Assembly (NCBI GenBank): GCA_018398805.1
Contig: JAGFBZ010000713.1
Coordinates: 371,501-435,500, forward strand
Origin: Hirundichthys speculiger
Taxonomy: Eukaryota > Chordata > Actinopteri > Beloniformes > Exocoetidae
Direction: 5' to 3'
Length of the DNA: 64,000 nt
This document shows positions 15,424 to 44,573 of this stretch, in pieces. The notes below the pieces were generated by a model. The model did not search any database, had not been told where the DNA came from, and saw only the letters and a program-made list of their open reading frames with translations. Each line of letters starts with the position of its first letter. The stretch's first letter is position 1. Both the position numbers and the translations under genes were made by a program.

Positions 15424-17081
<1,658 letters not shown>

Positions 17082-19035: not shown

Positions 19036-19339
19036 ATGTCTCTGAAGAACTTTGAGGCCAAGTGGAAAACGCAGCTGACCTTCATCCTGCAGGAGCTGGA
19101 AGACTCTCAGTTCAACGTCCTGCTGTTCCTGCTGGATAAAATCCCACAGGGAGTGAAGGGGGGGAAAGCAAGGGAGGAAATGACCAAAATAATCATCCAG
19201 TACTACGGGGTGGAGGAGTCTATCAACATCATCAAGAATGCAATGGATAGCAAGATCCCGAGGAGGGATGCCGCCATCCAGGACCTGCTGCGCCCCATGG
19301 TGGCCAAACTGCAGACAGGGCGCACGAAGAATAAAAGCG
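19036..19339 (+). CDS. PYD gene exon 1: Pyrin-like death-fold domain
   Basis: The exon starts with ATG after GCTGCTGAAG and encodes MSLKNFEAKWKTQLTFILQE, then DSQFNVLLFLLDKIP, a GKAREEMTKIIIQYYG segment and a final helix ending DLLRPMVAKL. The helix-loop-helix order, the IP before helix 3 and the YG before helix 5 fit a PYD; a CARD-like death fold is the alternative. The donor is AGCG|GTGAGT, phase 1. No obvious TATA box was found upstream, and a 5' UTR exon is possible. Confidence 0.72.
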
Positions 19340-22300
19340 GTGAGTTCCAGAGAACATATTTACCTCTGCTTCGGCTAACATTTACTAAAACCGCAGAGGA
19401 AAATTCACTCTCCTGTAAATAAACTGACACTAAGATGTTTTTCAGGGAGGAGGAGCAGAGCTGTCAGCAATTCAGGCTCAGTGGGCAAGAAACAAAACCG
19501 TCCATCTGGTACGTTTGAAGCTGGACTTATATTTTACCTCTGCTTCCTGAACGACAGAGATTAACATTAATGTGACTCTGGAGTGACAGGACAGAGGAAA
19601 TGGTTTCCTGCCATGACTGAAATGAAAATTTAAATCACACGACGCTTCAAAACTGAGTGTTCTGGTCCTGGATGGAGGAATACAGTAAACCCCCACACTT
19701 CACAGTTAATGGGGGCTCTGACCCCCCCTGCGAATGGTGAAACCCGCAATGTGCAGTACCCCCTCCACTTTTTTGAAAAAAAAAAGTGCACTTCGTTTGA
19801 ATTTTTTTTTATTTTTAAATTTTTTTTCAAATATTTTTTTTTTTATGAATACTTTAAAAACCTCCGCATTGTACTGAGACCGTGAACTGTGAGGGTTTAC
19901 TGTATTTCATATTTACCTTCATGCTGAGTCATGAAGGGTTTTGTCTTTATGAATCCATTTATGAGGAGCAGCGCATTAATGAGGTCAGACGCTGATGCTG
20001 GACAAGAAGGTCTGGCTCACAGTCTCTGTTCGGTCCACCCCAAAGCTGCTGGATCGGGTCGAGGTCAGGAGTCTGGGTGGAGGTCAGGGTCTGGGTGGAG
20101 GTCAGAGTCTGGGTGGAGGTCAGGGTCTGGGTGGAGGTCAGGGTCTGGGTGGAGGTCAGAGTCTGGGTGGAGGTCGGGAGTCTGGGTGGAGGTCAGGAGT
20201 CTGGGTGGAGGTCAGGAGTCTCTGGGTGGAGGTCAGGAGTCTGGGTGGTGGTCCGGGGGGTGGAGGTCAGGGGGTCAGGAGTCCGGGGGAGGTCAGGAGC
20301 CTGGGTGGAGGTCGGGAGTCTGGGTGGAGGTCAGAGTCTGGGTGGAGGTCAGGAGTCTGGGTGGAGGTCAGGAGGTCAGGAGTCCGGGTGGAGGTCAGAG
20401 TCTAGGTGGAGGTCAGGAGTCCGGGTGGAGGTCAGAGTCTGGGTGGAGGTCTGGGTGGAGGTCAGGGGTCTGGGTGGAGGTCAGGAGTCTGGGTGGAGGT
20501 CAGGAGTCTGGGTGGAGGTCAGGAGTCTGGGTGGAGGTCAGGGGGTGGAGGTCAGGAGGGTCAGGGGGGGTCAGGGGTGGAGGTCAGGGGGGGTCTGGGT
20601 GGAGGAGGTCAGGAGTGGAGTGGTCAGGAGAGTCTGGATGGAGGTCAGAGTCTGGGTGGAGGTCAGGAGTCTGGGGTCAGGAGGTCAGGAGGTCAGGTGG
20701 AGGTGGAGGTCTGGAGGAAGGGGTCTGGGTGGAGGTCAGGTCAGGGGTCTGGGTGGAGGTCAGGAGTCTGGGTGGAGGTCAGGAGTCTGGGTGGAGGTCA
20801 GGAGCCTGGGTGGAGGTCAGGAGTCTGGGTGGAAGTCAGGAGCCTGGGTGGAGGTCAGGAGTCTGGGTGGAGGTCGGAGGTCTGGGTGGAGGTCGGGAGT
20901 CTGGGTGGAGGTCAGGAGTCTGGGTGGAGGTCAGGAGTCTGGGTGGAGGGGTCAGGAGTCTGGGTGGAGGTCAGGAGTCCCATTGACTCGGTTCTGTGAC
21001 TCTACGAAGTCTTCGCTGTTGTTCCTAAACTTTAATGCAAAATCTCACAAATGTTGAATTTTGTTTACCACAGCTGAGGTCTTCAGTTTTAGCTCTAAAA
21101 CCATCCACTGAGTGAACTAAACACTGTTTTTTTTCTCTCCTCGTTAAAGATCAGAGCAGCCAACCTGACGAGGTAATAAGCGGTTCATTCGTTAAACATA
21201 TATTCGTATTTGCTGTCGTCTAATGCTGCTTCAACGCTGCTTTTATCCAGAAAGACGCTGTTCTGGATCCAGATGGAAACCGCCAGCTTCTCTCTGAAGA
21301 TCCAGCTGTGCAGGAAACATCTGGAGGCTCGAAGCAGAAACAGAAGAGGGTGAGCTTTAAAACGATGGTGCAGCTCTTCACATCAACAGATCTTTTCATG
21401 AAGAATCATCAACTTATAAGATACAGTCATGGAAAAAATTATTAGACCACCATTTTTTTCTTCACTTTCTTGTTCATTTTAATACCTGGTACCACTAAAC
21501 GTCATCATGTGACTAAAACAGACAGAAAAGGAAACACTGAATGCATAAAAGCAGTGTTTTTGGCAGTACAACACCATAGCTATTGATGTAAAAACTTAAG
21601 TTATGATCAAGAAAACCATGGAAAATGGTAAGATATCAGCTTTTAAATAAAACTCTTATGAGCAATCTTTGTGGTTATCGTTATGTTTGTCCAAACAAAT
21701 GTACCTTTAGTTGTACCAGGCATTAAAATGAACAAGAAACTGAAGAAAACAAGGGTGGTCTAATAATTTTTTCCATGACTGTACATTCATTGACTTTAAC
21801 AAGTCATCAAACAAATTTCAAATATTGTTCGCCATCATGTTGGGCAGGAAAACGCTGACAGTATCCAACATTAACGTCATTTGTTGACCGTATTGAGGCA
21901 TAAATGCTTTCTTTTAAGGACCGTCTCTATCTTGTCCACAGTCTCGTTCTTTTTCTGCTCAGACTGATCCTGTCGGTCCGGCGAAGCCCAAACAGAGGAA
22001 GAGAAAGATGGAAGTTTCAGCTCTAAAACTAGAAGGTTCCACAGAAACCCCGCAGATACAGGTTGGTAGCAGAGAGGTCCAGACCCCCCCTTACCCAGCT
22101 GTCTCCTTCAGCTCTTCCAGGAGGACACCGGTGTGTCCCCAGAGCAGCTGAGACATGTAGTCCCTCCAGCCTGTCCTGGGTCTGCCCAGGGGCCTCCTCC
22201 TGGTTGGAAACACCTCCCCCAGGAGGGGGGGGGGGTCCAGGGGGGGCATCCTATCCAGATACTCAAACCACCTCAACTGGCTCTTCTCGATGTGGAGGAG

Positions 22301-25300
22301 CAGCAGCTCTACTCCCGAGACTCTTCCAGAAGACTGAACTTCCCCTCCTGTCTCTGAGGGAGAGTCCAGCCCCCCAGCGGAGGAAACTCATTTCAGCTGC
22401 TTGTATTCATGGTCCCATTTAGTCAGTTATTACTAGGGACGGGAATTGATAACTTTGGAGAAAAAGGAGAATCGATTTTTTTTACTTAGAAGTCACAACC
22501 TTACAAACTCAACAGCGACAATCATTAAACTGCCCCGAGTCCTGACATTGGCTGCCACCACCAATATCTTTACCTCTCTGGAGTAAATGTGGACCCAGCC
22601 TGTCAGAGAGCACCGACCGGACCCGAGACTAACTGTACTGATCCCGACCCGAACCCGGAGTCACGTCTTTTGAATGGACCTGAGACCCGATTCGGGTCGG
22701 AACCTCGGGTTTTCGGGTTGTCGGGTTGTTCCGAAGACCTCTACTAAGCAGTCGTGTTATCTTCAGGGACAAGCTCAGGAAAAAAGACATGCAGAGTAAG
22801 AACAGTAACACATAGTTTAATGACTCAAGATCAGTTCCACCAACAAGAAGGTAAGTGAACACATCACAGGGAGCATCATAAGGCGTCTCGGATGGTCTCT
22901 GCAGCTGAAAACAGAGATTCATTCAAACGCACTTGCTCAAAAGAATCATGACGACCTCTGGCTCCTTCCCCGTCAAAGAGGTGACGTTTCATGTCCCATG
23001 AGCAGTTCTGTCGAAGCCCCCGACCCACACGGGCCCTCCTGTAAGCGGTGTCACAGTAGGATGAAACCCCACCCACCAGGCGCTCCCTATGAGCCCCGCC
23101 CCCAGGCCTGGCTCCTGGGTGGGGCCAAAGAGGGTCCATGTCGTAGGAGCCAGTTTTACCAACGCAGACTAAAGGTCCCATATTCTGCTTTTCTTGACTT
23201 AACATGAACAGTTCATGAGTGACGAAGTAAAGCAACAAGAAAGGAGATGGATCAATGAACTGAAAGGGCAAACGAAGAAACTGAAAGAGAAAGCAGAAAT
23301 GAGGAAAGGGATGAATAAACTGTAACAAGTGTTTCCATCTTGTGCTGTTTCTTCCTTCAGACCGATCCTGCCGGTCCAGAGAAGCCAAAGAAGAAGAAGA
23401 AGACAGAGAAGAAAGATTCAGCCCTGAAACCGACGGGGTCCTCAGAAACCCTGATGATGCAGGTGGATGCTGCTTCCTACATATCAGATTCAATATTTCA
23501 ACGCTGCGCAGTCAGTGTTTCTTATCCTGATGTCAGAAAGTCAGGGAAAGATTCAAAACAACGAGAATTGATGACTGAATTGAGAGGGAAGACAAGCAAG
23601 GAAGGAAGGAACTGATCAAGGAAGTTAGCTGCGAGTGATCAGATGCTCCCTAATCCTTCAGTCCTCTTAGTGTTGCACTTCTTCATCAGACACACGACTC
23701 TCTTCCTTCTTCATCTTCCACCTCTTCATCATCTCCATCTGTCTTTGTCCTCTTCATCTTCCTCACCACCAGAGTCATCTTCCACCTCCATCCTCCACCT
23801 CCATCCTCTGCTGTCTGGCTGCTCTCTCTCCTCCCACTACTCTCCAGTCTCTGATCTCCTTCAGTGTCCATCATCTCCAGGTGTGGTCCACCTGTGTGCT
23901 CCTACCTCCGCTCTGATCAGTCTCCCTGTGTTCCTGCCTCTTCTAGAAGAAAGTCTTCACTTCAACCATCTCCATCCATCTGACCTTCTACATTCTGATG
24001 TCCCGAACACCAAACCTGTCCATCACCTCTTCATCACCTCTGTTGTCTTCCCCAACATGACCACTGAAGTCTGCTTTCATCTCTGGAGATCCTCTGCATC
24101 ACTTCATCCACCTCCTGAACTTCTCCTTCTCTTCTAACTCTGGTCCAAACTGTGGGTCAGAACCTCTAACTACAGTTATGGCCAAAAGTTTTGAGAATGA
24201 CACAAATATGTTACTTTTTCACAAAGTCTGCTGCTTCAGAGTTTTTATATGTTTTTGTCAGGTGTTTCTATGTTATAATGAAATACAATTAGAAGCATTT
24301 CATCACTTTCAAAAGCTTTTATTGAGAATTACACATAATTCATGCAATAAGTCAATATTTGCAGTGCTGACCCTTCTTTTTCAAGATCTCTGCAGTTCTC
24401 CCTGGCATGCTGTTAATCAACTTCTGGACCAAATCCTGACTGATGGCAGTCCATTCTTGCATAATCAACGTTTGGAGTTTGTCAGAATTTGTGGGTTTTT
24501 GATTGTCCACCCGCCTCTTGAGGATTGACCACAAGTTCTCAATGGGATTAAGTTCCGTGGAGTTTCCTGGCCAAGGGCCCAAAATCTTAATGTTTTGTTC
24601 CCCGAGCCATTTCGTTATGACTTTTGCTTTATGGCGAGGCGCTCCATCATGCTGGAAAAGGCATTCTTCATCACCAAACTGCCCTTGGATGGTTGGGAGA
24701 CGTTGCTCTTGGAGGACCTTCTGGTACCGTTCTTCATTCATGGCTGTGCTTTTAGGCGAGATTGTGAGAGATCCAACTCCCTTGACCGAAAAGCAACTTC
24801 ACACATGAATGGTCTCTGGATGCTTCACTGTTGGCATGAGACAGGACTGATGGTAGCGCTCATCTCGTCTCCTCCAAACAAGCCTTCTTCCAGATGCCCC
24901 AAACGGTCGGAAAGGGGATTGATCAGAGAAAATCACTTTACCCCAGTCCTCAGGAGTCCAGTACCATCAGTCCTGTCTCATGTGAGGCAGTGAAGCATCC
25001 AGAGACCATTCATGTGGGGGGTTGAACTGCAGCCTCTAGTGCTCAGAATAAGAACTGCAGCCTCTAGTGGTCGGTAGAGGAACTGCAGCCTCCAGTGGTC
25101 GGTAGAGGAACTGCAGCCTCTAGTTGTCTGTAGAGGAACTGCAGCCTCTAGTGGTCGGTAGAAGAACTGCAGCCTCCAGTGGTTGGTAGAGGAACTGCAG
25201 CCGCCAGTGGTCGGTAGAAGAACTGCAGCCTCCAGTGGTTGGTAGAGGAACTGCAGCCTCCAGTGGATGGTAGAGGAACTGCAGCCTCCAGTGGTCGGTA

Positions 25301-28092
25301 GAGGAACTGCAGCCTCCAGTGGTCGGTAGAGGAACTGCAGCTGTGGTCAGCCAGCCTCTAGTGGGTCAGCCTCTAGTGGTAGAGGAGCAGAACTGCAGCC
25401 TCTAGTGGTCGGTAGAGGAACTGCAGCCTCTAGTGGTCTCTCCTCTAGTGGTCGGTAGTGGGTCTCTAGGTAGAGGAACTGCAGCCTCTAGTGGTCGGTA
25501 GAGGAACTGCAGCCTCTAGTGGTCGGTAGAGGGAGACTGCAGCCTCTAGTGGTCCTCTAGTGGTCTAGTGGTGAGTCCAGCAGCCAGCCTGTGTCGGTAG
25601 TGGAGAGGAACTGGTCTAGGGCTGCTCTAGAGAGGAATGCAGCCATCTAAAGTGCGAGTAGAACAAGACTGGCCCTGGTCTGGTCGGTAGAGGTTGACTG
25701 CAGCACTCTGAGAGAACAGACCTTCAGCTGAGTGTCTCAGAACTGAGTGGACAGATCACTTCAGTTTCATTTGAAATGGTTCAGTTTCCTCAAAGCTTCT
25801 TCTGGCTAGTTTGGTCCATGTGGACCATCAGTGATTAATCAAAAATGGTCATTTTCTGTGGTGAGACATGATTGGCACCAGACATCCCTAACCTGGATTC
25901 AGCAGTCAAAACTTTGTGTCTGGAATCCCAACTGGTTGTGTTCTTCAGTGGGTGTTTCAAGGCAGGCATCTGGATCCAGGTCCACGATGTTCCTGTGTTT
26001 AAATCAGAACCAGTTGTAACGTTCAGGCAGTTCAGTCGAGCAGCAGAGGACGCTCAACATGACACACCTACAACAGTTGTTGTGGTTGGATCCAGTGGCT
26101 CAGGTGTTTAAAAGTCTAGATCCCAAATAAAAGACAGCCCAACTGTGAAAAGACCAGATCGCATGCACATGAAGGAATCTGTAAAGCATCATCTTATCTT
26201 TGGGTCGATGCTGTAACATCTGAGGCCTCCTCTCTGATTTCTGAATCCAAATGCAGCTAATGCACGAGTCCAAGTCTGAGTCAAATCAAGAGTCCTTAAA
26301 ATTCAGGTGCAAATCAGACTTCCAGTCTGAGCCCAGGACCAGACCAGACCGAACCGGACTGGACCAGAAGGACCGTATCATTCAGATTGAGACACACCTG
26401 TGAAAATCTTATTGGAACTGCTAATGAAACCGTCTCCATTAGTGGGTTGAAAAAGATTTGAAAAGAAAACAACAAAAAAGTAATTTCATTGTAGCTTTTG
26501 GTCCTTCAGACTGTCAGCAGATTTATCTAGATACAATCTGGCTGAGCTCATAATGAGATGTGGACTAGTGGTGTGAACATAGACATATCTGCGAAGGGAC
26601 GTCCCTCAGGAACTGCAACAAAACCTTCTGCAAACTTGGAAAAGCAGATGGATGAATAGACGGATGCAACAGATTCATGAACAGAAGGAAATACATCTCG
26701 TGCTGCTTCTTTCTTCAGACTAATCCTGTCGGTCCAGTGAAGCCCAAAAAGAAGACACAGAGGAAAGATTCACTTCTGAAACTGACTTCATTAATCTGCG
26801 AGAACCTGAAGGTGAGTCCTGATAGGCATGCTGCAGGTACCAGGTAAGTAGGTGGAGTTTGTTGTTGCAGAGCAATAAACTACAGGAGTTAAACTGAAGG
26901 GACAAAGACTTTAGGAAACAGAAGAATAAAATCATGGAGAGGTCAGAGTATATAAATAATAATTCTTCTTGACTCAAACGACTGAGTTGTCTGTTATTAA
27001 TTCAGAAGTGTTTCAGTCTTGTCCTGCCTCTTTGTTCAGACTGATCCTGCTGGTCCAGTGAAGTCCAAAAAGAAGAAGACAGATAAGAACGATTCCCTTC
27101 TGAACCTGCTCCAGGTAGACTAACTGCCAGGCTAACCTTTAAGTGTCCTGCCATCAGAAACTCAGGGAACTTTCTAATCATGCTTTCTGAGAAACAGTGG
27201 CATATTTAAGCTTTGAGAACAAGTCTTGCCTTTCCTTTGAGGCAACAAAAAAGACTTTTTTTGCTACTTTAATGTTTGAGTTGGATTAATGATGTCATTA
27301 ATATAGAAACTTCCTCACAATGTCTACTGAAGAGCACGGGCCCAGTCTACCATGGAGCTCTTTAAGGGGAAGAAACCTCAAGCAGAATCATATGGAGGGA
27401 CCTTCCTGATGAAGACCAGCTGGGTGAAGAAAGAAAAGAGGAGGGAGACAGGAAAGAGAAAGGAGAGCACATACATCCTGGCAATACTATAACTTCTATT
27501 CTAATAATTTTTCTTGGCATAAGTGGCCTTTATTCACAGTAGAAACAGAATGGGGAAGACCTACAGCAAAGGGTTGCATGGGCCGGGAGTCGAAACTGTG
27601 ACTGCTGTGTCGACCACTGAACCACCAGGCGGCCCTGTAGTTTCTATTTAGTACATGAACTTCAGAGATGACTATATAAACAGATGAAGGCAGCAACACC
27701 GAGGTGGTCAGAGGATCAGACTGCTGGTCAGCATGTTAGTTGATATCTCAGAGACACCACTAGTAGGTTTTTCTAAAGCACAGATCTGAAGCCTTTTCTT
27801 GAGGCAGCTGGGAAGTTCCTTATTGGTTGGAGCTGGCTCAAGCCACTGGTCTGACACTATACTGAACAAAGCTAAACTTAACGAGTCATTTCCATTCTGA
27901 AGTGTTTGACTGAAGTGAATCTTGGGTTGTTTCTTTGCTCAGGCTGATGCTGCTGGTCCAATGAAGCCCAAAAGAAAGAAGACACAGAAGAAAGATTCAT
28001 CTTTGAACCTGACTGCATTAATAGAAACCCTCCAGGTACAGGTAGGTGAGGCTCTATCGATATATATATATACATATATATATACATATACA

Positions 28093-28131
<39 letters not shown>

Positions 28132-28649: not shown

Positions 28650-28683
<34 letters not shown>

Positions 28684-34600: not shown

Positions 34601-37600
34601 ACCGTACACAGCTACAATAGCCTGGCTCCTCCTCCTCCTCATACTGGTCACCAGTCTGATGTGGTAGAACCATACACAGCTACAACAGCTCGGCTCCTCC
34701 TCCTCATACTGGTCACTAGTCTGATGCGGTAGAACCGTACACAGCTACAACAGCCCGGCTCCTCCTCCTCATACTGGTCACCAGTCTGATGTGGTGGAAT
34801 TGTACACAGCTACAGCAGCCTGGCTCCTCCTCCTCCTCATACTGGTCACCAGTCTGATGCGGTAGAACCGTACACAGCTACAACAGCTCGGCTCCTCCTC
34901 CTCATACTGGTCACCAGTCTGATGCGGTAGAACCGTACACAGCTACAACAGCCTGGCTCCTCCTCCTCGTACTGGTCACCAGTCTGATGCGGTAGAACCG
35001 TACACAGCTACAATAGACTGGCTCCTCCTCCTCATACTGGTCACCAGTCTGATGCGGTAAAACCGTACACAGCTACATCAGCCTTGGTCCTCCTCCTCAT
35101 ACTGGTCACCAGTCTGATGCGGTAGAACCGTACACAGCTACAAAAGCCTGGCTCCTTCTCCTCAGACTGGTCACCAGTCTGATGCAGTAGAACTGTACAC
35201 AGCTACAATAGACTGGCTCCTCCTCCTCATACTGGTCACCAGTCTGATGTTGTGGAGCCGTACACAGCTACAACAGCCTGGCTCCTCCTCCTCATACTGG
35301 TCACCAGTCTGATGCGGTAGAACCGTACACAGTTACAACAGCCTGGCTCATCTTCCTCATACTGGTCACCAGTCTGATGAGGTAGAACCGTAGACAGCTA
35401 CAACAGCCTGGCTCCTCCTCCGCCTCATACTGGTCACCAGTCTGATGCGGTAGAACCGTACACAGCTACAACAGCCTGGCTCCTCCTCCTCATACTGGTC
35501 ACCAGTCTGATGTGGTAGATCCGTACACAACTACAATAGCCTAGCTCCTCCTCCTCATACTGGTCACGAGTCTGATGTGGTAGAACCGTACACAGCTACA
35601 ACAGCCTGGCTCCTCATCCTCATACTGGTCACCAGTCTGATGTGGTGGAACCATATACAGCTACAACAGCCTGGCTCCTCCTCCCCATACTGGTCACCAG
35701 TCTGATGTGGTAGAACCGTACACAGCTACAACAGCCCGGCTCCTCCTCCTCATACTGGTCACTGGTCTGATGCGTTAGAACCGTACACAGCTACAACAGC
35801 CTGGCTCCTCCTCCTCATACTGGTCACCGGTCTGATGCGGTAGAACCGTACACAGCTACAACAGCCTGGCTCCTCCTCCTCGTACTGGTCACCAGTCTGA
35901 TGCGGTAGAACCGTACACAGTTACAACAGCCTGGCTCATCTTCCTCATACTGGTCACCAGTCTGATGAGGTAGAACCGTACACAGCTACAACAGCCTGGC
36001 TCCTCCTCCTCCTCATACTGGTCACCAGTCTGATGCGGTAGAACCGTACACAGCTACAACAGCCTGGCTCCTCCTCCTCATACTGGTCACCAGTCTGATG
36101 TGGTAGATCCGTACACAGCTACAATAGCCTGGCTCCTCCTCCTCATACTGGTCACGAGTCTGATGTGGTAGAACCGTACACAGCTACAACAGCCTGGCTC
36201 CTCATCCTCATACTGGTCACCAGTCTGATGTGGTGGAACCGTACACAGCTACAACAGCCTGGCTCCTCCTCCTCACACTGGTCACCAGTCTGATGTGGTA
36301 GAACTACACACAGCTATAATAGCCTGGCTCCTCCTCCTCATGCTGGTCACCAGTCTGATGTGGTAGATCTGTACACAGCTACAATAGCCTGGCTCCTCCT
36401 CCTCATACTGGTCACGAGTCTGATGTGGTAGAACCGTACACAGCTACAACAGCCTGGCTCCTCATCCTCATACTGGTCACCAGTCTGATGTGGTGGAACC
36501 GTACACAGCTACAACAGCCTGGCTCCTCCTCCTCACACTGGTCACCAGTCTGATGTGGTAGAACTACACACAGCTATAATAGCCTGGCTCCTCCTCCTCA
36601 TGCTAGTCACCAGTCTGATGCGGTAGAACCGTACACAGCTACAACAGCCTGGCTCCTCCTCCTCAGACTGGTCACCAGTCTGATGTGGTAGAACTGTACA
36701 CAGCTACAACAGTCTGGCTCCTCCTCCTCATACTGGTCACCAGCCTGCTGCAGTAGAACCGTACACAGCTACAACAGCCTGGCTCCTCCTCCTCAGACTG
36801 ATTACCAGTCTGGTCTCACTGCTGTGGGACAGCATCCCAGTCTCCAACCAGCCAGCTTTCATGCTTTCTCTTCAGGAGTGTTTCAGTCTTCCGCTTCTTT
36901 GCTCAGGCTGATGCTGCTGGTCCAGTGAAACCCAGAAGAAAGAAGACAGAGAAGAAAGATTCATCTTTGAACCTGACTACATTAACAGAAACCCTCCAGG
37001 TACAGGTAGGTGAGGCTCTATCAGATATATACACAGCTACAACAGCCAGACTCTGATTTTAAATGTATTCATGTATCTTGTTCTGCCTCTTCTTTGTTCA
37101 GACTGACTGTGCTGGACCTGTGAAACCTAAAAGGAAGAGGGCAGAGAAGAAAGCTTCGTTTCTGAACCTGACTGGGTCCACAAACACTCTCCAGATACAG
37201 GTAGGTGCTGAGTTCATGATGCCAGGCCTGAAACGTGATGAAACATGATGGAAATAAGGGCACAAATGAAGAACTGAGGGAAAATAATAAAACAAAGGAA
37301 CATATGACTGAAACGAGGAAAGATGATGAATATTTTTCGGGAGAAAAAAAAGATTTAAAATGAGGGAACAGAACCATTAACGGGGGGGAGGGGGTGTTAG
37401 GACAAACTGTTACAACCTCTCTGTCTAGCCAGTAACGAGGCATTAGCTTGATTAACAGGGACAAGGACCGGGTCTGGTGCTGGAGCAGAGTCTGGGACAG
37501 GAGCTTGGACACGGAAAGGTGATAACAGATAAAAGCATTAATGGATCTTCTGTTACTTATTTCTCAGACTGAATGTACGGGAGCAGTGAAGCCCAAACAG

Positions 37601-40600
37601 AAGAAGGCAGTGAAGAAAGATTCGACTCCTTCTTCCTGCCTGAACCAGAAGGTACGTTTGGATGGGGGCGGGGAAGATAAAGTGGACAATAATCAGAGGT
37701 GACGGAGGCCAAAAGAAACCCCGAAACAGCCTCAAGCTCCACATAAAGGACTGGAGTGTTTGTTCAGTGGACTACTGTCAGTCATGTATCCCAACAAAGA
37801 CGGTCTTTTTTTTTGGGGGGGGGGGGGGGGGGGACTCTCAATATTGGGTAAAGCCTTCAGCCGTTCCCTCAGAGCATCACGGATCCTCCACCATGTCCAG
37901 CTGCTGGTAGGATGTTCTCTTCATCTAAACAGTTCTGCCTGTTGTCAGGATTTGTTCCCTGAAAGATTGTGGTTCATCCAGGTGCTCTTGGACAAACATC
38001 AGTTCCTTTTTTCCTCCTTGGTGGGACAGATAAAGGTCGCTGTCTTCTTCTTCTTCTGTAAAGCCAACCATGACCACAGACTGGTTCAGGCTGGATTCAG
38101 GTCTTTGGATGTTTGGTGTGGTGGTCTTTTTTCCACCCTTCACACCAACCTTAGACTTCCCTCATCAGTTTTTCCTCTTCCTTCTACGTCCAGAGAGGTT
38201 CTTGACAGTTCCATGCTGGGAAGACGTCCTAATGACACGTGCACAGTTGAAACACGGATACCAAGGTTTTTTGGAGATGAACTTACACCGTTTGGAGATC
38301 TCGTACTTGCTAACATCACTTCTGATGTTCTCATACAGCTGCTTTCTCTTAATCACATGAACAGGGAACCATGTGGCTGTTTAAAACACTAAAGTCATCA
38401 TTCATTGGCTGATTCATGTCACATGGGCAGGACAGTTGAATCAGAATCAGAATCAGATTTATTATCATCACTGAGCCAGCGTCCCAACACAATGAATTTT
38501 GTCTTCTCAGTACACCATCCAAGAGAAACATACAGAAACAACAACAACATATGGACAGGAGTCAACGGTGCTTGGGGCAGCAGCTATAACGGCGCTTCTA
38601 CCGTTGTCAGGGAGCAGTATACTCAAGCACACCACAAGCACCCACAAGTGCCCATAGATGCTCAAGTACACCACCCTCCGGCCAGGGCACTTTTAGCAGA
38701 AGAAACTATGATCACATAGGGGATGGGGGGGGGGGGATGAAAAATAGAGGTGTCTCACACCACATGTCCTTGATCAGAGGCACATGTTGTGGGATTCACA
38801 AAAAAAACCTCAGCACAAGCATAACAGACTTATTACAAGACATCATATGGGTCAGGAAAAAAGTCCCTGCCAAGCGGCACGTGCACGCGCAGCCGGTGGC
38901 GCGCAGCGCAATCAGTCCGTTCCACGTGGGGGGAGAACATCAGGATCCAGCGAGGATGTTGAGACTCGGGGAAAGGATATGGAGCGGGGGGGCGTGGTGG
39001 GGGGCAGAGCCTTCTTCGGATAAGACCTTGGAGAGTTCTTTTCAATTCGGCCTTGAGTGAAGGCCGCTCGGGGGAGCCAGATTCAGATAAGAGAGATTGT
39101 TTTCGGTCAGCCTGACAATTAATTTTTGCCTGCCTTGAGTCCTGTTGCTGGTTTCTCTCGTGGGAATCATCCAAAAGTCCGAATTATTCATCACAGGTGA
39201 TTTACCACAGGAGTCAAAAAGTTTCCCTGCTGATTTACAGTTGAGGGTCCGGACACCAGCGACTTGGAAAGCTCTCAGTTTTTCCTCCCATGGTTTTTAA
39301 GTTGTTGTTTATCATTTGCTCTAGATTTTCTAGAGTTCTCTCCAGATGTTCCACATTATCTACTCAATGTTCATGGCTGCCAGTAAATCTGAGCAGGACT
39401 GTAATGTTCATCTGCTATGAAGCCAAAATCGTTTGGATATTTCCAGCAGTTTTAACAGCATGTTGGTGGTTTGTTCAGACTGGAGCTACTGGTCCGCTGA
39501 AGCCCAGAAAGAAGGCGGAGAAGAAAGATTCAGCTCCGACAGCAGCTGAAGCATCACAGGTACGGCAGCAGCGTCTGAATGTCGTCAGTCTTCAGACAGT
39601 GTTAATCCACACACCTCTCATGTCTCTAACATCTCCCACCGCCACCACTTGATTAATTATTCTACAGATTATTCCAGAAATGTTTTAATGTTGTGCTGCT
39701 GCTTTCTCCAGGGTAGTCCTGTTGGTACAGTGAAGCCCACCATGGCCAGCCCACCTACGAGACCAGCTTGGTTCACTGAAAATGTCCAGACACAGGTGGG
39801 TTCTGGTTCTGATGTTACCTTCACTCTGAGTGTGTTGGTAAATGTAAAGGTGTGATTGGCGAATCTCTCCTTTATCCTCACATAGATACAGTAGTGAAAA
39901 AGTTAGGACCAAGCTTTAAATCCTACGCTCTTTTCTGAAAAAAACATTATAAAAATGACAGTTGTGGGTCTTCGTATTAGACAAAGACAACCTCAAATGA
40001 AGAACATATTCACATCTCTGCTTATGTTCGGTCCTGTTCTGGAATAAACAATACCGAAGAGACGGAGACAATACGTTGTTCAGCTGTGGAAAGGGAGAGA
40101 CTTCGTAGAGGCGCTCTGCTCAGATCTCCAACAAGGCAGCCTGTTTTTATTAAGCTCCAACACAAGGAGGGGTGACATGAGTCATATGACAACTATAGCA
40201 GGATGTACATGCGTGTGGTTACCACCGCTGCTTTGTCTTGGAGGGGACCAGGCGCTTCAGAGCTGAGTTCCTGGAACAAAGAAGTCTGAACACAGAACGT
40301 TCCGGCTCAGACTTGTTATGAGCCTGCAAATGTCACGTAGTAAGCATTTAACACAAAAAAATAGCATGCAAAATGATAAGATTCACCTTGTTCACCCCAA
40401 CAACTTCCATGTGATTTAAAAGACAAGTAGTAGCCAGGTGCTGCTGATCATCATCTCCTGATGAAGTGATCACCGGCAGGTGTAGAGACTTCTAGAAACA
40501 TGCATCAGCAATGATCTCAAAGAAGCAACTGTTGCTGCATGTGAAACTGGAAAGGGTTACAAGAACCATTTCCAAAGTTCTACAGGCTGAAATACAACAA

Positions 40601-43600
40601 AAACGTGAATTTCCTTCTCAATAATTTGTGTGTAAATCTTAGTTCATCACAATCAACCTGAAATTGAGCACACGCAGGATCACAACACTCCTCCCTCAAA
40701 CAGACCAATCTGAGTACGATACCGAGGATGAACGGGGATGGACAACACCCTCATCCGAACTAAGACGATGGAAAAAGGAAATTTCACCAGATGGGCAGTT
40801 GAATAGTTACTAGAGCTTTCAAAGGTGGATTTTCCACTGATTTCAGTTTTAAACTCGTCTCTCACCAGAAGAACACCTGGAACCAACATCAGTCAGGAAC
40901 ATCTGTTCATCACATGTTAACATGTTTATGGATGGAATTTCTTCCTGTTAACAACCACAGATTCATGTTCAGATGGAGCCTTGATATCAGTGTGTGTTCA
41001 GTCCATCAGTCAGGAAACCCAGTGTTGTCAGCACCTGGAGAGGAATGGCTGATGTTCAGCTTCTCCTCGTCTGTCTCTACAAAGTCAGACCAACTCAGCT
41101 CAGAGTTCAAGAGGACAGCTGTTGGAGGTCTGAAGCAGCTGCTGGAGATCTCCAACAGCTGTCAGCTGTCATCATCATGGACTAAAACATCACTGTTGTC
41201 CCTAAAAGCCCTTTCCCTTCTGATTCCTCCAAAGCTGTCATGGTCATAGAAGAGAGAAGGGAGAAACTGCTACCATCAGGATCAATAAATGATTTCATGA
41301 CTGAAAATACTTTTTATAACATCAATTTAATGTCCGCGAGATTGTGAATTCAAGTCCAAAATCTGAAAACTAAAGTTCCAAATCAGAGAAAGAAAACTGA
41401 GAATCTGGAACCAAGAAACCAGATTCTGTCAACAAGAGAACGATCATCATTCTTGGTTGCACCTTTCTTCCTCTCAACTCTACCCATCTCTGTTTCTAAC
41501 CACCTTCCTCAGTTGTGGTTTTTCTGTTCTCACTTTCACTTCTGAAGAGAGTTAATGATGAGAAATAAAATCAACAGGTCAAACGTTTGAATGATCTCAT
41601 AGCAAAACCATGCAATTAAAAAAAGTGTTAATAATGTTGTGCTGCTGCTTTCTTCAGGGTAATCCTGCCGGGACAGTGAGGCCCACCATGGCCAGCCCAC
41701 CTGAGATACCAGCTGAGTTCAATGAAAACGCCCAGACACAGGTGGGTGCTGGTGTCGATGCTGACTTTAACTGCTGAGAAGATCGCCAGAAGTCTGTTTC
41801 AGAAGGCGGGTTAAGTTCAAACTCTTAGTACTTCAGATCTGAACTCAGGGAAACAGAGGGAACTTCAACCCGAGCAAGACGGTTCCGTTAAGTTGTTTCA
41901 GAAACCGAGGTAACTCATGAACTCTGACTCTGAACTAAACCTGCTCTTGACCAGGTTTACTTCAACAAACCCAGAGTTACTTTCTGTCTCCTCCCCTTCA
42001 TGAACGGAAAACGGGTTCAGTTTTATCAGTCGATCATATAATTCACATTTTGGAGACATCTGAACGATGATGTCATACTTACGTCAGTAGTCAAGCCAGA
42101 CGTCACTTACATTTGAGATACACCGATGAATGTTAACAGCGTTTAATCTACAGGTTTTTCTTCACATTTACCTGAACTTGTATAGCTACAAGATCTTATC
42201 CTTACCCACCGTACACCCATATTTACCTGGCGTTGCCATGGTGAATTATGGTAATTGAGCTCCATTGATGATGCCAACTCCAAAGGCCCAATCTGAAACC
42301 AGAAACTCAGGTTCTTTTCTCAGGTTTGACTCTGTTAATTTAAGTCCGAGTTTATTGAACCAAGTTTCTGAAATAGGACTCAATCATGCTCTCATTTTTG
42401 GACAAGTATAGTTTATTCATGACACCTGAACTCCTCAACAAGAAATAAAATTGAGGCGTGGGAGCCAGTGCAGGTGTGATGTGTAGGGATGGGAATTGAT
42501 AAGATTTTTCCGATTCCATTATCGATACTGTTTAACGATTCGATTCTTTATCGATTCTAATTTGGGGGAAAAGGAGAACAGTTTTATTAGCATCAATTTT
42601 TTTGACTTAGAAGTCACGACCTTACAAACTCAACAGCGAGGTCAAAAGAGGCCCAAAGCCTGGATAACGTGTTAACTGTTGTAATATGTAACTGAGTAAA
42701 TACACAAGAATGTGGAACATTTTACTAACAGATTTTTCCTAATAGAAATGAAAAAATCTCCCTTTAAAAGGATATATGAGCTCACTAAGCACTCAAAAAT
42801 AATAATAAAGAAAGATAAATACTATCAAATACAATGGAACTGTGCATAGTACAAATCTGCAAATACTATGAAGAATTAACAATTCTTTTGCAGAAAAATA
42901 ATCATGTCTTCCAGCCTCTGAACCAGCCAGACTCTCTCGTCACGGTCATCTTCTAAATGTAATGCAGAAGGCATTCGTTTAATAGCACAGCGCTAATGTT
43001 ATAGCGTGTTTTACAAAGAAGCACATAGGCAGCGGGATAGCTACTAACCAGAGTTACCAGAGGTGATCTTAGCTTGGCTACTGCCGCTGGGTTGAAATCC
43101 ATCAGTCCGAAGCGTCAAAAACACGACACTCGTTATCGCATGTTGTGCGCGCAAATGTTTCTGCATGCTAGTCGTGTTCCCTCCCGACGCTGTTATCTCC
43201 ACTTTACAATGACAGCTAGTTGCCTTGTTGCCATCTTTCTTTGGTGAAGTGAAGCCAAACTTTGGAGCGTTTGAACCTGGTGGGCACCATTGTTGTTTAC
43301 AACTGCAATGCGCGTGCTAAACCAACGTAACTTAATCATGTAAGTGCTTTCTGGAATTGACTGTGCGTAACTTGCGTTAATTACGTGAGATTCGTGCTGG
43401 TTGGAATCGATAAGAGAATCACTGGATAAATTGCCAAACAATTCCATGGAATTGAAACACACGGAACCGGTTCTCTACAGGAACCGGTTCTCGATTCCCA
43501 ACCCTAGTGATGTGATACTGTGTGTTAGTTGTTGACTCAGTTTGTTAAGCCTCCTTTCTGAATTCTGACCCTGATGCATCATCTTCTGCTGTACTTGGCA

Positions 43601-44573
43601 GCCCCTACTGCACCTCATTTTTAGTAAGACTCTCGATAAGCTGATTGCAGATAAGTCTGAAAAGCATGCTGAAAAATAGAACCCAAAGTAAGCATGTATG
43701 ATGGAAAGAAAGCTGGACCCAGAATGGAGCCTTGTGGTACCCCACAATCAGGTGGGGATGCAACTGCAGAGTACTGGCCCAGATATATGGAGAAACTCTG
43801 CTAAAATGTCTAGAACCAGTGAAGGACTAAACCCTTTGATGCCCACAGACACATCTAGATGCAATAATACAATGTCACGTCTACTGTATTAAAAGCAGCA
43901 GTAAGATCCAGGAGCACCAGAACATCAGACGAGCACCAGAACATCAGACTGACCACAATCATCTGACAAAAACGGGTCAGGTCAGACATAAAGAGATGGA
44001 TTTGCTTTCTTTCATCACCACTACAAAAACCTCACCATGGCCGACACAGGGACCCTCCTCAATGTTACGTAATGACATAAAAAGAAAGTTCTGCCCAGAA
44101 TGCAACTTTTGGTTCTGGATTCACCTTTTCATTCTTCAGAAAAATACTGTTAAGTAACTTTACACATGCGTAGAAACAACAAAAGTGCATCTACAATTTA
44201 AATGACGCGATGTTAAGTCACACTTTAAACACTGTTTCTTCTCAGTCTTTCTTTCAGCAGGAGAGCGACAACATTTTCCCAACTGGGTGGTTCTTTGATT
44301 GAACGTAATGCTGACGCCCAGTACAACCAGCACCAGCTTCAGGAGAGCCAGCAACCTGACCAGCTCCTGCAGGAGGAGATAGGACTGCACTCATGATGTC
44401 TTCTTTTTGTCTCATGAATAAATCAAAATTATTTCTTTCCTAAATTTGAACCATCACCCTCAAACCTTGTTTTTCTTCTGTTTAAGTGTTAATGGTGTTT
44501 TTTTTTTTTACAGATGTTGACCCTTCATTTCAAGAAGCACTTGTTCAGTCCGTTTATCCACATTAAACTGTGA
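19036..44573 (+). CDS. Pyrin-domain protein with amplified basic linker exons (19 exons assembled)
   Basis: Assembled from splice sites and phase: 19036-19339, 19446-19508, 21150-21172, 21251-21349, 21963-22061, 23361-23462, 26719-26811, 27040-27114, 27943-28041, 28540-28638, 30507-30605, 33413-33511, 36907-37005, 37102-37200, 37568-37651, 39479-39559, 39712-39795, 41658-41741, 44514-44573. The sum is 1845 nt, in frame, 614 aa. Residues about 1-95 form a death-fold domain best matching Pyrin (PYD/DAPIN), the homotypic interaction module of inflammasome adaptors. Residues from about 160 on are repeated basic modules of 25-34 residues with KPKRKK/RRKKTEKK clusters, probably disordered and NLS-like. 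No enzyme or receptor domain is visible. From exon 4 on, every internal exon is phase 0-0, so any can be skipped or duplicated without a frame change. The gene lies downstream of a tandem OB-fold gene on the same strand, and its 3' end converges on nup98. The death-fold family, last exon and exact isoforms are inferred. Confidence 0.68.
19446..19508 (+). CDS. PYD gene exon 2 (21 codons)
   Basis: The acceptor TTTTTCAG is followed by GGAGGAGG and the donor is TCTG|GTACGT, phase 1 on both sides. It encodes a basic Ser/Gly linker, GRRSRAVSNSGSVGKKQNR. It joins exon 1 in frame. Confidence 0.65.
19683..19902. mobile_element. mariner/Tigger-like MITE in intron 2
   Basis: The ends CAGTAAACCC and GGGTTTACTG are inverted and flanked by TA. 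The 220-bp interior is T-rich with no coding frame. Confidence 0.75.
20062..20985. repeat. 19-bp G-rich minisatellite in intron 2
   Basis: About 45 units of AGTCTGGGTGGAGGTCAGG with point and length variants. The plus (sense) strand is G-rich with GGG/GG runs. The long open frames in all three plus frames are repeat read-through, not genes. Confidence 0.97.
21150..21172 (+). CDS. PYD gene exon 3 (23-nt micro-exon)
   Basis: The acceptor is CGTTAAAG and the donor is GACGAG|GTAATA. It shifts the phase from 1 to 0 and encodes DQSSQPDE together with the preceding base. Micro-exons are easy to misread, so this is moderate. Confidence 0.5.
21251..21349 (+). CDS. PYD gene exon 4 (33 codons)
   Basis: The acceptor TTTATCCAG and donor AAGAGG|GTGAGC give a 99-nt phase 0-0 exon. 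It encodes KDAVLDPDGNRQLLSEDPAV and ends SKQKQKR. It has the length of the later repeat modules but is acidic and diverged, with a basic tail. Confidence 0.62.
21424..21781. mobile_element. Tc1/mariner MITE, copy 2 (inverted relative to copy 1)
   Basis: It has the same CAGTCATGGAAAAAATTATT ends and TA flanks as the 16.7-kb copy. The interior matches in the opposite orientation (AGTTGTACCAGGCATTAAAA here versus TTTTAATGCCTGGTACAACT there). Confidence 0.92.
21963..22061 (+). CDS. PYD gene exon 5: linker module 1
   Basis: The acceptor is TTTCTGCTCAG and the donor is ATACAG|GTTGGT. The 33 codons begin TDPVGPAKPKQRKRKMEVSA and end PQIQ. It is the first clear member of the repeated basic module family, phase 0-0. 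Confidence 0.72.
22082..22430 (-). mobile_element. Rex3/RTE-like LINE 3' fragment
   Basis: AGCTCTTCCAGGAGGACACC, GTAGTCCCTCCAGCCTGTCC and AACCACCTCAACTGGCTCTT match the minus-strand LINE at 5.25-5.56 kb. The corresponding minus-strand text includes RMPPLDPPPLLGEVFPT. It is truncated and frame-broken. Confidence 0.85.
22434..22743. mobile_element. chimeric hAT fragment: family B left end joined to family A right end
   Basis: The left end TAGGGACGGGAATTGATAA and the following AGAAGTCACAACCTTACAAA match the hAT element at 42484. The right part, including CTGCCCCGAGTCCTGACATT and the GAAGACCTCTA terminus, matches the element at 4037 in reverse orientation. The flanks do not form an 8-bp duplication. 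Confidence 0.8.
22955..23160 (-). mobile_element. Rex3/RTE-like LINE 5' fragment
   Basis: CTCTGGCTCCTTCCCCGTCA, AGAGGTGACGTTTCATGTCC and CCCAGGCCTGGCTCCTGGGT match the endonuclease start of the 5-8.5 kb LINE (8038-8290). This is an old fragment with deletions. Confidence 0.8.
23361..23462 (+). CDS. PYD gene exon 6: linker module 2
   Basis: The acceptor is CTTCCTTCAG and the donor is ATGCAG|GTGGAT. The 34 codons, phase 0-0, read TDPAGPEKPKKKKKTEKKDS onward and end LMMQ. It has an uninterrupted five-lysine block. Confidence 0.72.
24178..25016 (-). mobile_element. Tc1-like transposon, 5' truncated
   Basis: The right inverted end appears as ACAGTTATGGCCAAAAGTTT at 24172. The minus-strand frame 24352-24741 encodes the transposase C-terminal half with FQHDGAPRHKAKVITKW and STELNPIENLWSILKRRV, the second and third acidic catalytic positions. 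The other terminus is missing. The last 55 bp (24962-25016) are an inverted copy of 24804-24858, so the element ends in a hairpin before the 28-bp minisatellite. Confidence 0.88.
25020..25700. repeat. 28-bp minisatellite in the intron after exon 6
   Basis: About 20 units of GAACTGCAGCCTCTAGTGGT followed by CGGTAGAG, regular to about 25340 and then increasingly scrambled to 25700. Confidence 0.96.
25701..26718 (+). other. intron, no feature recognised
   Basis: Intron sequence between modules 2 and 3. I see no further module exon, only scattered CAGACC/GGACCAG text. Confidence 0.5.
26719..26811 (+). CDS. PYD gene exon 7: linker module 3
   Basis: The acceptor is TTTCTTCAG and the donor is CTGAAG|GTGAGT. 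The 31 codons begin TNPVGPVKPKKKTQRKDSLL. Phase 0-0. Confidence 0.7.
27040..27114 (+). CDS. PYD gene exon 8: linker module 4 (short)
   Basis: The acceptor is CTTTGTTCAG and the donor is CTCCAG|GTAGAC. The 25 codons begin TDPAGPVKSKKKKTDKNDSL. It lacks the LTxxxET segment found in the 33-residue modules. Confidence 0.7.
27505..27640 (-). repeat. tRNA-derived SINE-like fragment
   Basis: On the minus strand GGCCGCCTGGTGGTTCAGTG resembles an A box and AGTTTCGACTCCCGGCC a B box of a tRNA-derived retroposon. Related text occurs at 17.2 kb. Confidence 0.5.
27943..28041 (+). CDS. PYD gene exon 9: linker module 5
   Basis: The acceptor is CTTTGCTCAG and the donor is TACAG|GTAGGT. The 33 codons begin ADAAGPMKPKRKKTQKKDSS and end LQVQ. 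It is the founder-like copy for the amplified set at 28.5-37 kb. An in-frame alternative donor (CCAG|GTACAG) lies 6 nt upstream. Confidence 0.75.
28054..28170. repeat. (TA)n/(CTAT)n microsatellite
   Basis: Mixed TATATA and TATC tetranucleotides begin 13 bp after the exon 9 donor. Confidence 0.95.
28175..28438. repeat. 65-bp repeat, block 1 (about 4 units)
   Basis: Units contain CAGTCTGATGCGGTAGAACC, GTACACAGCTACAACAGCCT and GGCTCCTCCTCCTCATACTG. The period is 65 bp. Confidence 0.95.
28540..28638 (+). CDS. PYD gene exon 10: linker module 6
   Basis: The acceptor is CTTTGCTCAG and the donor is TACAG|GTAGGT. The 33 codons begin ADAAGPVKQRKKKTEKKDSS. The preceding 120 bp (GGTTACCAGTCTGGTCTCAC onward) recur before exons 11, 12 and 13. 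Confidence 0.75.
28648..28706. repeat. (CTAT)n/(CCAT)n microsatellite
   Basis: Tetranucleotide tail directly after the exon 10 donor. Confidence 0.95.
28773..30400. repeat. 65-bp repeat, block 2 (about 25 units)
   Basis: Starts after GTTCAAATGTATTGGTTTAA and a CAACCAGGAGCC junction. Units of 65 bp carry the core CTGGTCACCAGTCTGATG, and unit variants (TCGTGGAGCTG, AGTAGAACTG) recur in the same order in block 3. Confidence 0.97.
30507..30605 (+). CDS. PYD gene exon 11: linker module 7
   Basis: The 33 codons begin AEAAGPGKPRRKKTEKKDSS, phase 0-0, with the same acceptor flank and donor as exon 10. It differs from exon 12 at two residues only. Confidence 0.75.
30606..31345 (+). repeat. unique intron spacer, duplicated at 33512-34250
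   Basis: About 740 bp, beginning GTAGGTGAGGCTCTATCTGT, reappears almost unchanged 2905-2906 bp downstream. It is therefore part of a tandem segmental duplication that also includes one exon and one 65-bp block. Confidence 0.92.
31346..33305. repeat. 65-bp repeat, block 3 (about 30 units)
   Basis: The variant-unit order (AAATAGCTAC, CAGGCTGATG, AGACTGGCTC, then TCGTGGAGCTG) parallels block 2. This shows the two blocks were copied as a whole. Confidence 0.97.
33413..33511 (+). CDS. PYD gene exon 12: linker module 8
   Basis: The 33 codons begin AEAAGPVKPRRKKTEKKDSS and end IKTLQVQ. It is a near-identical duplicate of exon 11, 2906 bp away. Confidence 0.75.
33512..34250 (+). repeat. duplicated intron spacer (copy of 30606-31345)
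   Basis: Same order and text as the upstream copy, with scattered substitutions such as GAGTCTCACGTG here for GAGCCTGATGTG there. Confidence 0.92.
34251..36805. repeat. 65-bp repeat, block 4 (about 39 units)
   Basis: The longest block. It holds its own internal higher-order duplications: the run GTTACAACAGCCTGGCTCAT recurs near 35332 and 35919, and AGAACTACACACAGCTATAA near 36301 and 36561. Confidence 0.97.
36907..37005 (+). CDS. PYD gene exon 13: linker module 9
   Basis: The 33 codons begin ADAAGPVKPRRKKTEKKDSS, with TTLTET instead of TTLIET. The flanking intron matches exons 10-12. Confidence 0.75.
37102..37200 (+). CDS. PYD gene exon 14: linker module 10
   Basis: The acceptor is TTTGTTCAG and the donor is ATACAG|GTAGGT. 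The 33 codons begin TDCAGPVKPKRKRAEKKASF. It is more diverged than exons 9-13, and its flanks are unrelated to the 65-bp blocks. Confidence 0.73.
37568..37651 (+). CDS. PYD gene exon 15: linker module 11
   Basis: The acceptor is ATTTCTCAG and the donor is CAGAAG|GTACGT. The 28 codons begin TECTGAVKPKQKKAVKKDST and end LNQK. Confidence 0.7.
37808..37833. repeat. poly-T/poly-G tract
   Basis: A T run followed by 19 consecutive G (37815-37833). It may be unstable, and the exact length is doubtful in any assembly. Confidence 0.9.
37940..38350 (-). mobile_element. Tc1-like transposase N-terminal fragment
   Basis: Minus-strand frames give YEISKRC, then HGTVKNLSGRRRKRK (the GRPR/AT-hook-like zone), ESSLNQSVVMVG and FVQEHLDEPQSFRE. 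This is the order of the DNA-binding and early catalytic part of a Tc1-like transposase. Frame changes make it dead. Confidence 0.72.
38432..39260. repeat. fish interspersed repeat of uncertain family
   Basis: It begins GAATCAGAATCAGAATCAGA followed by TTTATTATCATCACTGAGCC and AATGAATTTTGTCTT, the start of a common fish retroposon type. The rest, including CCACAAGCACCCACAAGTGC, was not identified. Confidence 0.45.
39479..39559 (+). CDS. PYD gene exon 16: linker module 12
   Basis: The acceptor is TTTGTTCAG and the donor is TCACAG|GTACGG. The 27 codons begin TGATGPLKPRKKAEKKDSAP and end EASQ. Confidence 0.7.
39712..39795 (+). CDS. PYD gene exon 17: C-terminal module type 2, copy 1
   Basis: The acceptor is TTTCTCCAG and the donor is ACACAG|GTGGGT. 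The 28 codons begin GSPVGTVKPTMASPPTRPAW and end NVQTQ. It keeps the GPVKP-like start but has lost the lysine cluster. Confidence 0.68.
39884..40640 (+). repeat. repeat-rich intron with Tc1-like fragment
   Basis: The segment 40505-40590 (AATGATCTCAAAGAAGCAAC, then GAAAGGGTTACAAGAACCAT and TTTCCAAAGTTCTAC) resembles the N-terminal coding region of a fish Tc1-like transposase. The rest is unassigned. Confidence 0.45.
41658..41741 (+). CDS. PYD gene exon 18: C-terminal module type 2, copy 2
   Basis: The acceptor is CTTTCTTCAG and the donor is ACACAG|GTGGGT. The 28 codons begin GNPAGTVRPTMASPPEIPAE and end NAQTQ. It is a clear duplicate of exon 17. Confidence 0.68.
41742..42475 (+). other. intron, no feature recognised
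   Basis: No additional module exon and no repeat family identified. Confidence 0.45.
42484..43506. mobile_element. non-autonomous hAT element, family B (1023 bp)
   Basis: The left end TAGGGATGGGAATTGATAAG and the right end GATTCCCAACCCTA are inverted. The exact 8-bp duplication GTGATGTG flanks at 42476-42483 and 43507-43514. Interior ends are rich in ATCGATTC motifs. No transposase frame is present. Confidence 0.93.
43515..44513 (+). other. intron, no feature assigned
   Basis: A possible alternative acceptor (TTTCTTTCAG at about 44260) would open QESDNIFPTGWFFD and then stop. It is weaker than the exon at 44514. Confidence 0.35.
44514..44573 (+). CDS. PYD gene candidate terminal exon
   Basis: A strong acceptor (a run of T then ACAG) is followed in phase 0 by 19 codons, MLTLHFKKHLFSPFIHIKL, and TGA. 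A polyadenylation signal lies about 30 bp later. It carries no OB-fold or other domain, so this gene ends differently from the upstream OB-fold gene. The choice of last exon is inference. Confidence 0.5.
   Translation: MLTLHFKKHLFSPFIHIKL

Follow-up and report, generated by a model that had tools for sequence, protein, structure and literature searches.

A pyrin-domain gene of Hirundichthys speculiger with 14 in-phase basic linker exons, a probable HIN-less member of a PYHIN-like family of spiny-rayed fishes

We analyzed a 64,000-nucleotide stretch of the Hirundichthys speculiger genome (assembly GCA_018398805.1, contig JAGFBZ010000713.1, positions 371,501 to 435,500 of the forward strand), hereafter the window, and describe here a predicted gene on its plus strand that encodes an N-terminal pyrin domain (PYD) followed by 14 short exons, each specifying a variant of one lysine-rich module. 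The PYD of this array gene is akin to those of fish proteins that unite PYD and HIN domains, the gene itself has no HIN part, and the sister proteins that we found carry fewer modules. On balance, we think it probable that the array gene belongs, without a HIN part of its own, to a PYHIN-like family of spiny-rayed fishes and specifies a PYD-bearing regulator in which a linker exon has been copied to ≈14 in-phase modules, with the length of the resulting tail set by copy number and splicing. The window lies on a contig of 510 kb in a genome of 1.04 Gb, and its proteins are most similar to those of spiny-rayed fishes.

Results

Gene model and module array

The predicted array gene spans 19036-44302 on the plus strand (coordinates are those of the window unless a contig is named) and is made up of 18 exons followed by a proposed terminal one, all of which are open and bordered by AG and GT; the joined reading frame is open over 613 codons, corresponding to a predicted protein of 613 aa. 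Exon 1 (19036-19339, 304 nt) harbors the start codon and the PYD, consists of 101 codons plus 1 nt, and leaves in phase 1. Exon 2 (19446-19508, 63 nt, phase 1-1), exon 3 (21150-21172, 23 nt, phase 1 to 0), and exon 4 (21251-21349, 99 nt, phase 0-0, a nonmodule linker) precede the first module and restore phase 0. The original prediction, which had been made from the letters of this DNA, had the PYD exon followed by the module exons; the PYD exon and the 14 modules stand, but three short exons lie between them and the PYD exon leaves the frame in phase 1. Exon 2 is weakly similar (E 3.3) to a 21-residue stretch that is present in perch isoform P0111 and missing from P0113 (a difference known from annotation only), and exon 3 resembles, by eye, the perch sequence DQLKSCQPD.

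The module exons, each located both by a splice-site scan and by a module profile, follow on the plus strand at 21963-22061 (99 nt), 23361-23462 (102 nt), 26719-26811 (93 nt), 27040-27114 (75 nt), 27943-28041 (99 nt), 28540-28638 (99 nt), 30507-30605 (99 nt), 33413-33511 (99 nt), 36907-37005 (99 nt), 37102-37200 (99 nt), 37568-37651 (84 nt), 39479-39559 (81 nt), 39712-39795 (84 nt), and 41658-41741 (84 nt). Modules 6 to 9 of this series are recent copies, the first of them adjoining a minisatellite discussed below, and the last two modules are divergent (GTVKP and GTVRP types, respectively). In the splice-site scan, all 14 modules are open AG..GT exons of 75 to 102 nt, accompanied by some longer or shorter alternatives; the scan considered only lengths divisible by three, and phase is therefore not an independent result of it. 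Phase 0-0 follows instead from the splice sites, which fall on the module borders in 14/14 cases. A profile built from the 14 modules and run against the six frames of the window recovers exactly those 14, all on the plus strand (E ≤ 6e-9), with the best match beyond them at chance level (E 0.56), and 20 mononucleotide shuffles gave no match at E ≤ 0.01. A single module sequence that departs by one residue from the module at 36907 recovers, when used as query, 9/14 modules at E ≤ 3e-4 and, outside the array, nothing in the window better than E 0.31. Scan and profile bear out the earlier proposal of 14 exons of 75 to 102 nt that encode one module, and the placement of the splice sites bears out their shared phase 0-0.

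The module consensus reads approximately T-D-P-A-G-P-V-K-P-K-R-K-K-T-E-K-K-D-S-S-L-N-L-T...Q-x-Q. The xQxQ ending ascribed to the modules is borne out in part, with a QxQ end in 9/14, and their basic character is evident from the composition of the array, in which 432 residues include 89 Lys and Arg versus 43 Asp and Glu. Nuclear localization and nucleic acid binding, suggested earlier for the Lys/Arg clusters, are candidate functions of the modules; just 4/14 of them contain a monopartite K-[KR]-x-[KR] motif. Beyond the modules, the proposed terminal coding exon (44246-44302, plus strand; SFFQQESDNIFPTGWFFD, stop) is the weakest part of the gene model; its proposed tail, IFPTGWFFD, is only briefly similar to the tail of swamp eel P0116, IFPETGYSYYD, and an AATAAA follows at 44417. 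An Rfam scan of 18500-45000 revealed no RNA family.

No HIN part could be assigned to this gene. Profiles of the first, second, and third OB folds of the fish relatives (OB1, OB2, and OB3; E ≤ 0.1) match nothing after 19036 and only an upstream gene at 11-13 kb, and fish protein queries found neither a HIN nor a third OB domain downstream of the array. Since no HIN domain is present in the same protein, we file the array gene as a HIN-less relative and not as a strict PYHIN.

The pyrin domain of exon 1

The product of exon 1 adopts a PYD fold in a confident AlphaFold model, and in a structural alignment of this model (VIA), the AIM2 and MNDA PYDs top a tied list of PYDs. The window PYD shares 49% identity over 89 residues with that of P0006 from Morone, which has PYD and HIN in one protein, and 63% identity over 100 residues with that of P0116 from Monopterus, which has a PYD and five modules. 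Set against these results are a Pfam PYRIN score for the window PYD that falls below the cutoff, Pfam PYRIN matches (E ≤ 0.01) in only 12/47 of the fish relatives, the absence of any phmmer match of the window PYD among PDB sequences, and weak Foldseek E-values for the PYD, the best of which is 0.096. Because phmmer found nothing and Foldseek was weak, we judged the fold on the model and the VIA alignment. The proposed death fold of exon 1 is sustained by this model, by the alignment, and by the 49% identity to the P0006 PYD; the Pfam PYRIN check proposed along with it came out under the cutoff, with the fold upheld by model and alignment. As modeled, exon 1 encodes a PYD.

A family of PYD-HIN-like proteins in spiny-rayed fishes

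Protein searches with the HIN part of the window, with Morone P0006, and with the predicted window protein as queries returned 6, 111, and 4 proteins, respectively (with 7991 candidates scored for the last query), for a total of 118 distinct proteins, which we classified with PYD, OB1, OB2, and OB3 profiles built from 47 of them. PYD and OB1 occur together in 83/118 proteins, and all four domains are found in 67/118; another 11 harbor a PYD in the absence of OB1 or OB2, and nine of these 11 carry modules. The named sources are fishes that we take to be spiny-rayed, with Centroberyx representing the Beryciformes and Monopterus the Synbranchiformes. Most of the database names are "uncharacterized protein," and automatically assigned ones include "gamma-interferon-inducible protein 16-like" (P0061) and "myeloid cell nuclear differentiation antigen-like" (P0080). 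Three proteins (P0047, P0090, and P0103) bear the name "replication factor A," which speaks against a PYHIN-like identity; we set this name aside, as it agrees with the OB folds and not with the PYD. The names "synapsin-1-like" (P0116) and "neurofilament medium polypeptide-like" (P0011) were likewise set aside, as both chains start with this PYD. Some contigs of ≈1.5-1.6 kb encode P0075, P0083, and P0085, in which PYD and HIN parts share one unbroken frame of 365-450 residues; the same parts span ≈16 kb in this genome, which suggests that these contigs are spliced transcripts. We consider the family identity of the fish PYD-HIN-like proteins to be well supported.

The nine HIN-less sister proteins that carry modules have two to five of them by the module profile, versus 14 in the window gene. 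Perch P0111-P0114 and walleye (Sander vitreus) P0115 have three each, swamp eel P0116 has five, sea bream P0118 and P0119 have five and four, respectively, and tilapia P0117 has two modules and two PYDs. A third OB-like domain follows the modules in 7/9 of these sisters (isoforms counted apart) and has no match in the window gene after 19036. In sea bream, where P0118 and P0119 are listed as isoforms of a single gene, the two are set apart by a 36-residue stretch containing one module (annotation only). The spread in module number and this isoform pair agree with the earlier suggestion that such an array can grow or be spliced in frame. Finally, P0074 from Pelmatolapia unites, in a single chain, a PYD, a module, a HIN OB1, a second module, and a CARD, with a Pfam HIN score of 21.6 bits that is just below the cutoff of 22.7; if this gene model is correct, the module belongs also in HIN proteins.

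Several further domain arrangements were observed among the 118 proteins. Many of the fish PYHIN-like proteins have, behind the HIN pair, a third OB-like domain (residues 366-446 of P0008), and this is the one that the perch and sea bream proteins without HIN retain. A CARD accompanies HIN-like OB folds in P0074, P0100, and P0105, whereas P0095 has a CARD and OB folds with no Pfam HIN match at E ≤ 0.01, and P0098 joins a CARD to two PYDs. From their domain content, the CARD-bearing relatives are predicted to be a direct caspase-recruiting version of the PYHIN-like protein. In P0109 from Thunnus maccoyii, a domain resembling bulb-type (mannose-binding) lectins comes after the same PYD (Pfam B_lectin, under the cutoff at E = 5e-4).

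HIN-200 or RPA70 affinity of the OB folds

The tandem OB folds of the fish proteins bring in a competing explanation, in which a PYD became joined to an RPA70-like pair of tandem OB folds in fishes, separately from the origin of the therian PYHINs, so that the two would be analogues and not homologues. RPA70 and HIN-200 are level when full-length profiles are compared, as are RPA70 and HIN in a structure comparison with the P0008 model (pLDDT 86.6), and both results count against descent from a common PYHIN ancestor. Likewise, the OB2 profile does not separate HIN from RPA70, and at E ≤ 0.01, Pfam REPA_OB_2 matches 45/47 fish proteins and Pfam HIN 38/47. In a Foldseek search with the whole P0008 model, however, the first four matches are HIN chains and an RPA complex is fifth. 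With a profile restricted to OB1, HIN-200 sequences make up 18 of the 29 PDB sequences listed, and 15 of these 18 lie ahead of the best RPA70 (3e-4), including p204 HINab (3e-13, a figure that sums several stretches, the best single one of which is weak), IFI16 (3e-10), mouse AIM2 (5e-7), and MNDA (2e-6). The other three, i.e., two p204 HINa sequences (9e-4) and human AIM2 (0.037), fall behind RPA70 and favor convergence to that extent. Pfam HIN matches 20/21 OB1 pieces, and the next family matches 3/21. We therefore rejected kinship with RPA70 as the sole reading on the strength of the OB1 ranking and the Pfam HIN matches, with those three sequences still on the side of RPA70. RPA70 is not known to carry a PYD.

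Gene architecture points in the same direction. The same order of three parts, PYD, basic linker, and tandem OB folds, is found in fishes and mammals, and the HIN part is encoded in two exons in both. The latter is reported for mammals (PMC3458909), and the HIN part in the window likewise lies in two exons, 11352-11780 and 11875-12109, a comparison of exon number in one species. On these sequences, we read the fish OB pair as HIN-like, and common descent with the mammalian PYHINs is somewhat likelier than not; independent fusion to an RPA70-like pair is a doubtful but serious alternative.

Recent module copies and the minisatellite

The modules at 28540, 30507, 33413, and 36907 are 92-96/99 nt identical, and their upstream 150-bp flanks are identical in 142-146/150 positions; the downstream flanks are equally similar only in the pair 30507/33413 (146/150). 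A 65-bp minisatellite (Tandem Repeats Finder [TRF] arrays 28178-28445 and 28788-36812, plus strand) lies between module exons 5 and 9, around modules 6, 7, and 8, and the first family of a repeat scan places this repeat at 97 sites. Four near-identical modules interleaved with a minisatellite form the pattern that would be expected from unequal exchange in the minisatellite. Three more minisatellites, with units of 16, 19, and 28 bp, occupy 18329-18712, 20056-20979, and 25024-25554, respectively, just before or inside the array gene, making this a locus in which tandem repeats abound. Transposon remnants were also detected, comprising a reverse transcriptase (RVT_1; 5502-6221, minus strand) and two DDE_3 transposases (15858-16244, plus strand, and 24352-24798, minus strand), of which one DDE_3 remnant sits within an intron of the array gene.

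The recent copies raise the question of whether the array matters at all. Summed over the six pairs of recent modules, 19/24 codon differences are nonsynonymous, and conservation of the exon does not exceed that of the flank upstream of it; both findings run counter to a tail under selection, and the recent copies accordingly show no visible constraint. The gene might then encode a plain decoy in which nothing but the PYD counts, as in PYD-only proteins, with the array a neutral length of sequence arising from minisatellite instability. The failure to find a HIN domain downstream of the PYD fits such an explanation, as do the HIN-less mammalian PYHINs p208, p213, and AIM2b (PMC3458909) and the PYD-only POP3 (PMC13253634). 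The module motif, however, is still recognizable by the module profile in perch, walleye, sea bream, swamp eel, and two cichlids, which makes a neutral array unlikely, and we regard it as such.

The upstream HIN-type gene and locus surroundings

A related gene lies upstream of the array gene on the plus strand. Its first HIN OB-fold exon (11352-11780) matches Pfam HIN at E = 4.1e-5 with 23.8 bits (cutoff, 22.7), its second (11875-12109) contains a frame break near 12000, and a C-terminal third OB-like domain with a stop follows at 12700-12951. We assign to this gene a PYD exon on the same strand, 3.2 kb before the window (C713:368051-368284; locus L007:5037-5296). Frame breaks are found in the PYD exon and the second OB exon, i.e., in two of the four identified coding exons, and from its sequence, the gene is probably a pseudogene here unless the breaks are assembly errors.

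Decay may thus be active at this locus, and it could be asked whether the array gene is itself a pseudogene or an annotation mirage, its exons persisting through recent duplication with no protein made. Two negative results tell against an expressed array gene: no transcript of it was seen, and none of the 7991 database candidates scored, which were those sharing most words, closely matches the protein of this species. On the other side stand the open exons with intact AG/GT borders, the continuous 613-codon frame, and the related proteins annotated in other fishes, and we consider a nonfunctional array gene very improbable.

In protein queries of the genome, HIN matches were found at the upstream gene only (at least three exon matches), and the window PYD finds at least three places, all on the same contig. 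A search of the genome with the Pfam HIN profile gave no match even though the HIN exon in the window exceeds the Pfam cutoff, which we take as a sign of low sensitivity. The sole HIN-type gene detected in the genome looks broken, and the adjoining HIN-less array gene is wholly open. A third PYD exon of the family, also open, is at C713:290579-290836 on the minus strand (locus L008), ≈100 kb from the array gene. Pfam Nup96 matches occur in two minus-strand frames at 50728-54629, with a third at 55210-55602 that is under the cutoff; this neighbor is presumably NUP98-96 and might serve as a synteny anchor for the locus in other fishes.

Discussion

The PYHIN family, which includes AIM2 and IFI16, is treated as a mammalian innovation in the papers cited below, three of which, from 2012 to 2026, restrict its genes to mammals. 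HIN is described as without trace outside mammals (PMC3458909), an absence repeated elsewhere (PMC7905024); teleosts, according to a 2023 review on the inflammasomes of fishes, have no AIM2 gene (PMC9978379), and a paper of May 2026 places the origin of PYHINs in therians (PMC13253634). A search of open-access literature on the PYHIN family or HIN domain and teleosts found no description of a fish HIN protein.

Like the mammalian PYHINs AIM2, IFI16, MNDA, and p204, the window gene encodes a basic linker and an N-terminal PYD, for the model of which AIM2 and MNDA are the best, if tied, structural matches, and the fish sister proteins harbor a HIN-like tandem OB domain. Unlike them, the window gene lacks HIN, and many fish proteins add a third OB-like domain after it. 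RPA70, with its tandem OB folds, resembles the fish proteins to the extent that it is level with HIN over the whole length, and differs in lying behind most HIN-200 sequences on OB1. For the loss of HIN, the nearest parallels are p208, p213, and AIM2b, mammalian PYHINs with no HIN (PMC3458909; alternative splicing may give p208 a form that includes HIN), and POP3 (PMC13253634), each a PYD without HIN within the PYHIN family; unlike the window gene, none has an amplified basic exon array in the published descriptions at hand. For the array, the nearest tested parallel is mouse IFI207, a PYD protein with polymorphic linker repeats, of which 11 to 25 S/T-rich units occur (PMC11253629). Forms with 24-25 repeats stabilize STING better than a 12-repeat form, and the PYD is required (PMC11253629). 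The IFI207 repeats are 14 residues long and all in one exon, and HIN-B is kept (PMC11253629), whereas each unit of the window gene is Lys-rich and has its own phase 0-0 exon, and there is no HIN. The plan of the window gene, of which the original prediction knew no example among described inflammasome proteins, is not isolated: the gene falls, as a member without HIN, into a fish family of PYD-linker-HIN proteins, with IFI207, p208, and p213 as its closest described parallels.

In the mechanism that we propose, the PYD would, to judge from its fold, join homotypic filaments with ASC or with sister PYDs. In the absence of OB folds, the protein would not be a DNA sensor in the manner of AIM2 and might instead regulate or coscaffold those family members that are PYD-HIN sensors. 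Numerous weak interactions, with nucleic acid or with acidic partners, could be made by the Lys-rich and probably disordered tail, and exon copy number, changing by unequal exchange in the minisatellite, together with the skipping of modules would set the number of contacts with the frame intact. That the array gene specifies a regulator of tunable valency is the part of our reading that we advance only tentatively.

With similar reserve, we suggest that the AIM2/IFI16 plan of PYD, basic linker, and HIN may predate mammals and be present in acanthomorph fishes, and that lineages among these may have lost HIN and expanded the linker exon to a basic array that varies in copy number and can be selected by splicing, i.e., a germline-tunable PYD scaffold with cassette-exon units driven by the adjoining minisatellite. 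Proteins of the PYD-linker-HIN kind are already known; what is new here is the fish family and its HIN-less exon-array form. The exon array constitutes a clean natural experiment, with one unit per exon, phase 0-0, and a module number that varies among the sampled species, so that one can ask directly how a death-fold scaffold responds to the length of its linker. The question is not an idle one, since repeat number in IFI207 alters the stabilization of STING (PMC11253629). If our reading is true, a PYD-HIN family in fishes, some species of which are farmed or used in research, would shift the origin of the sensor and offer a fish model for it.
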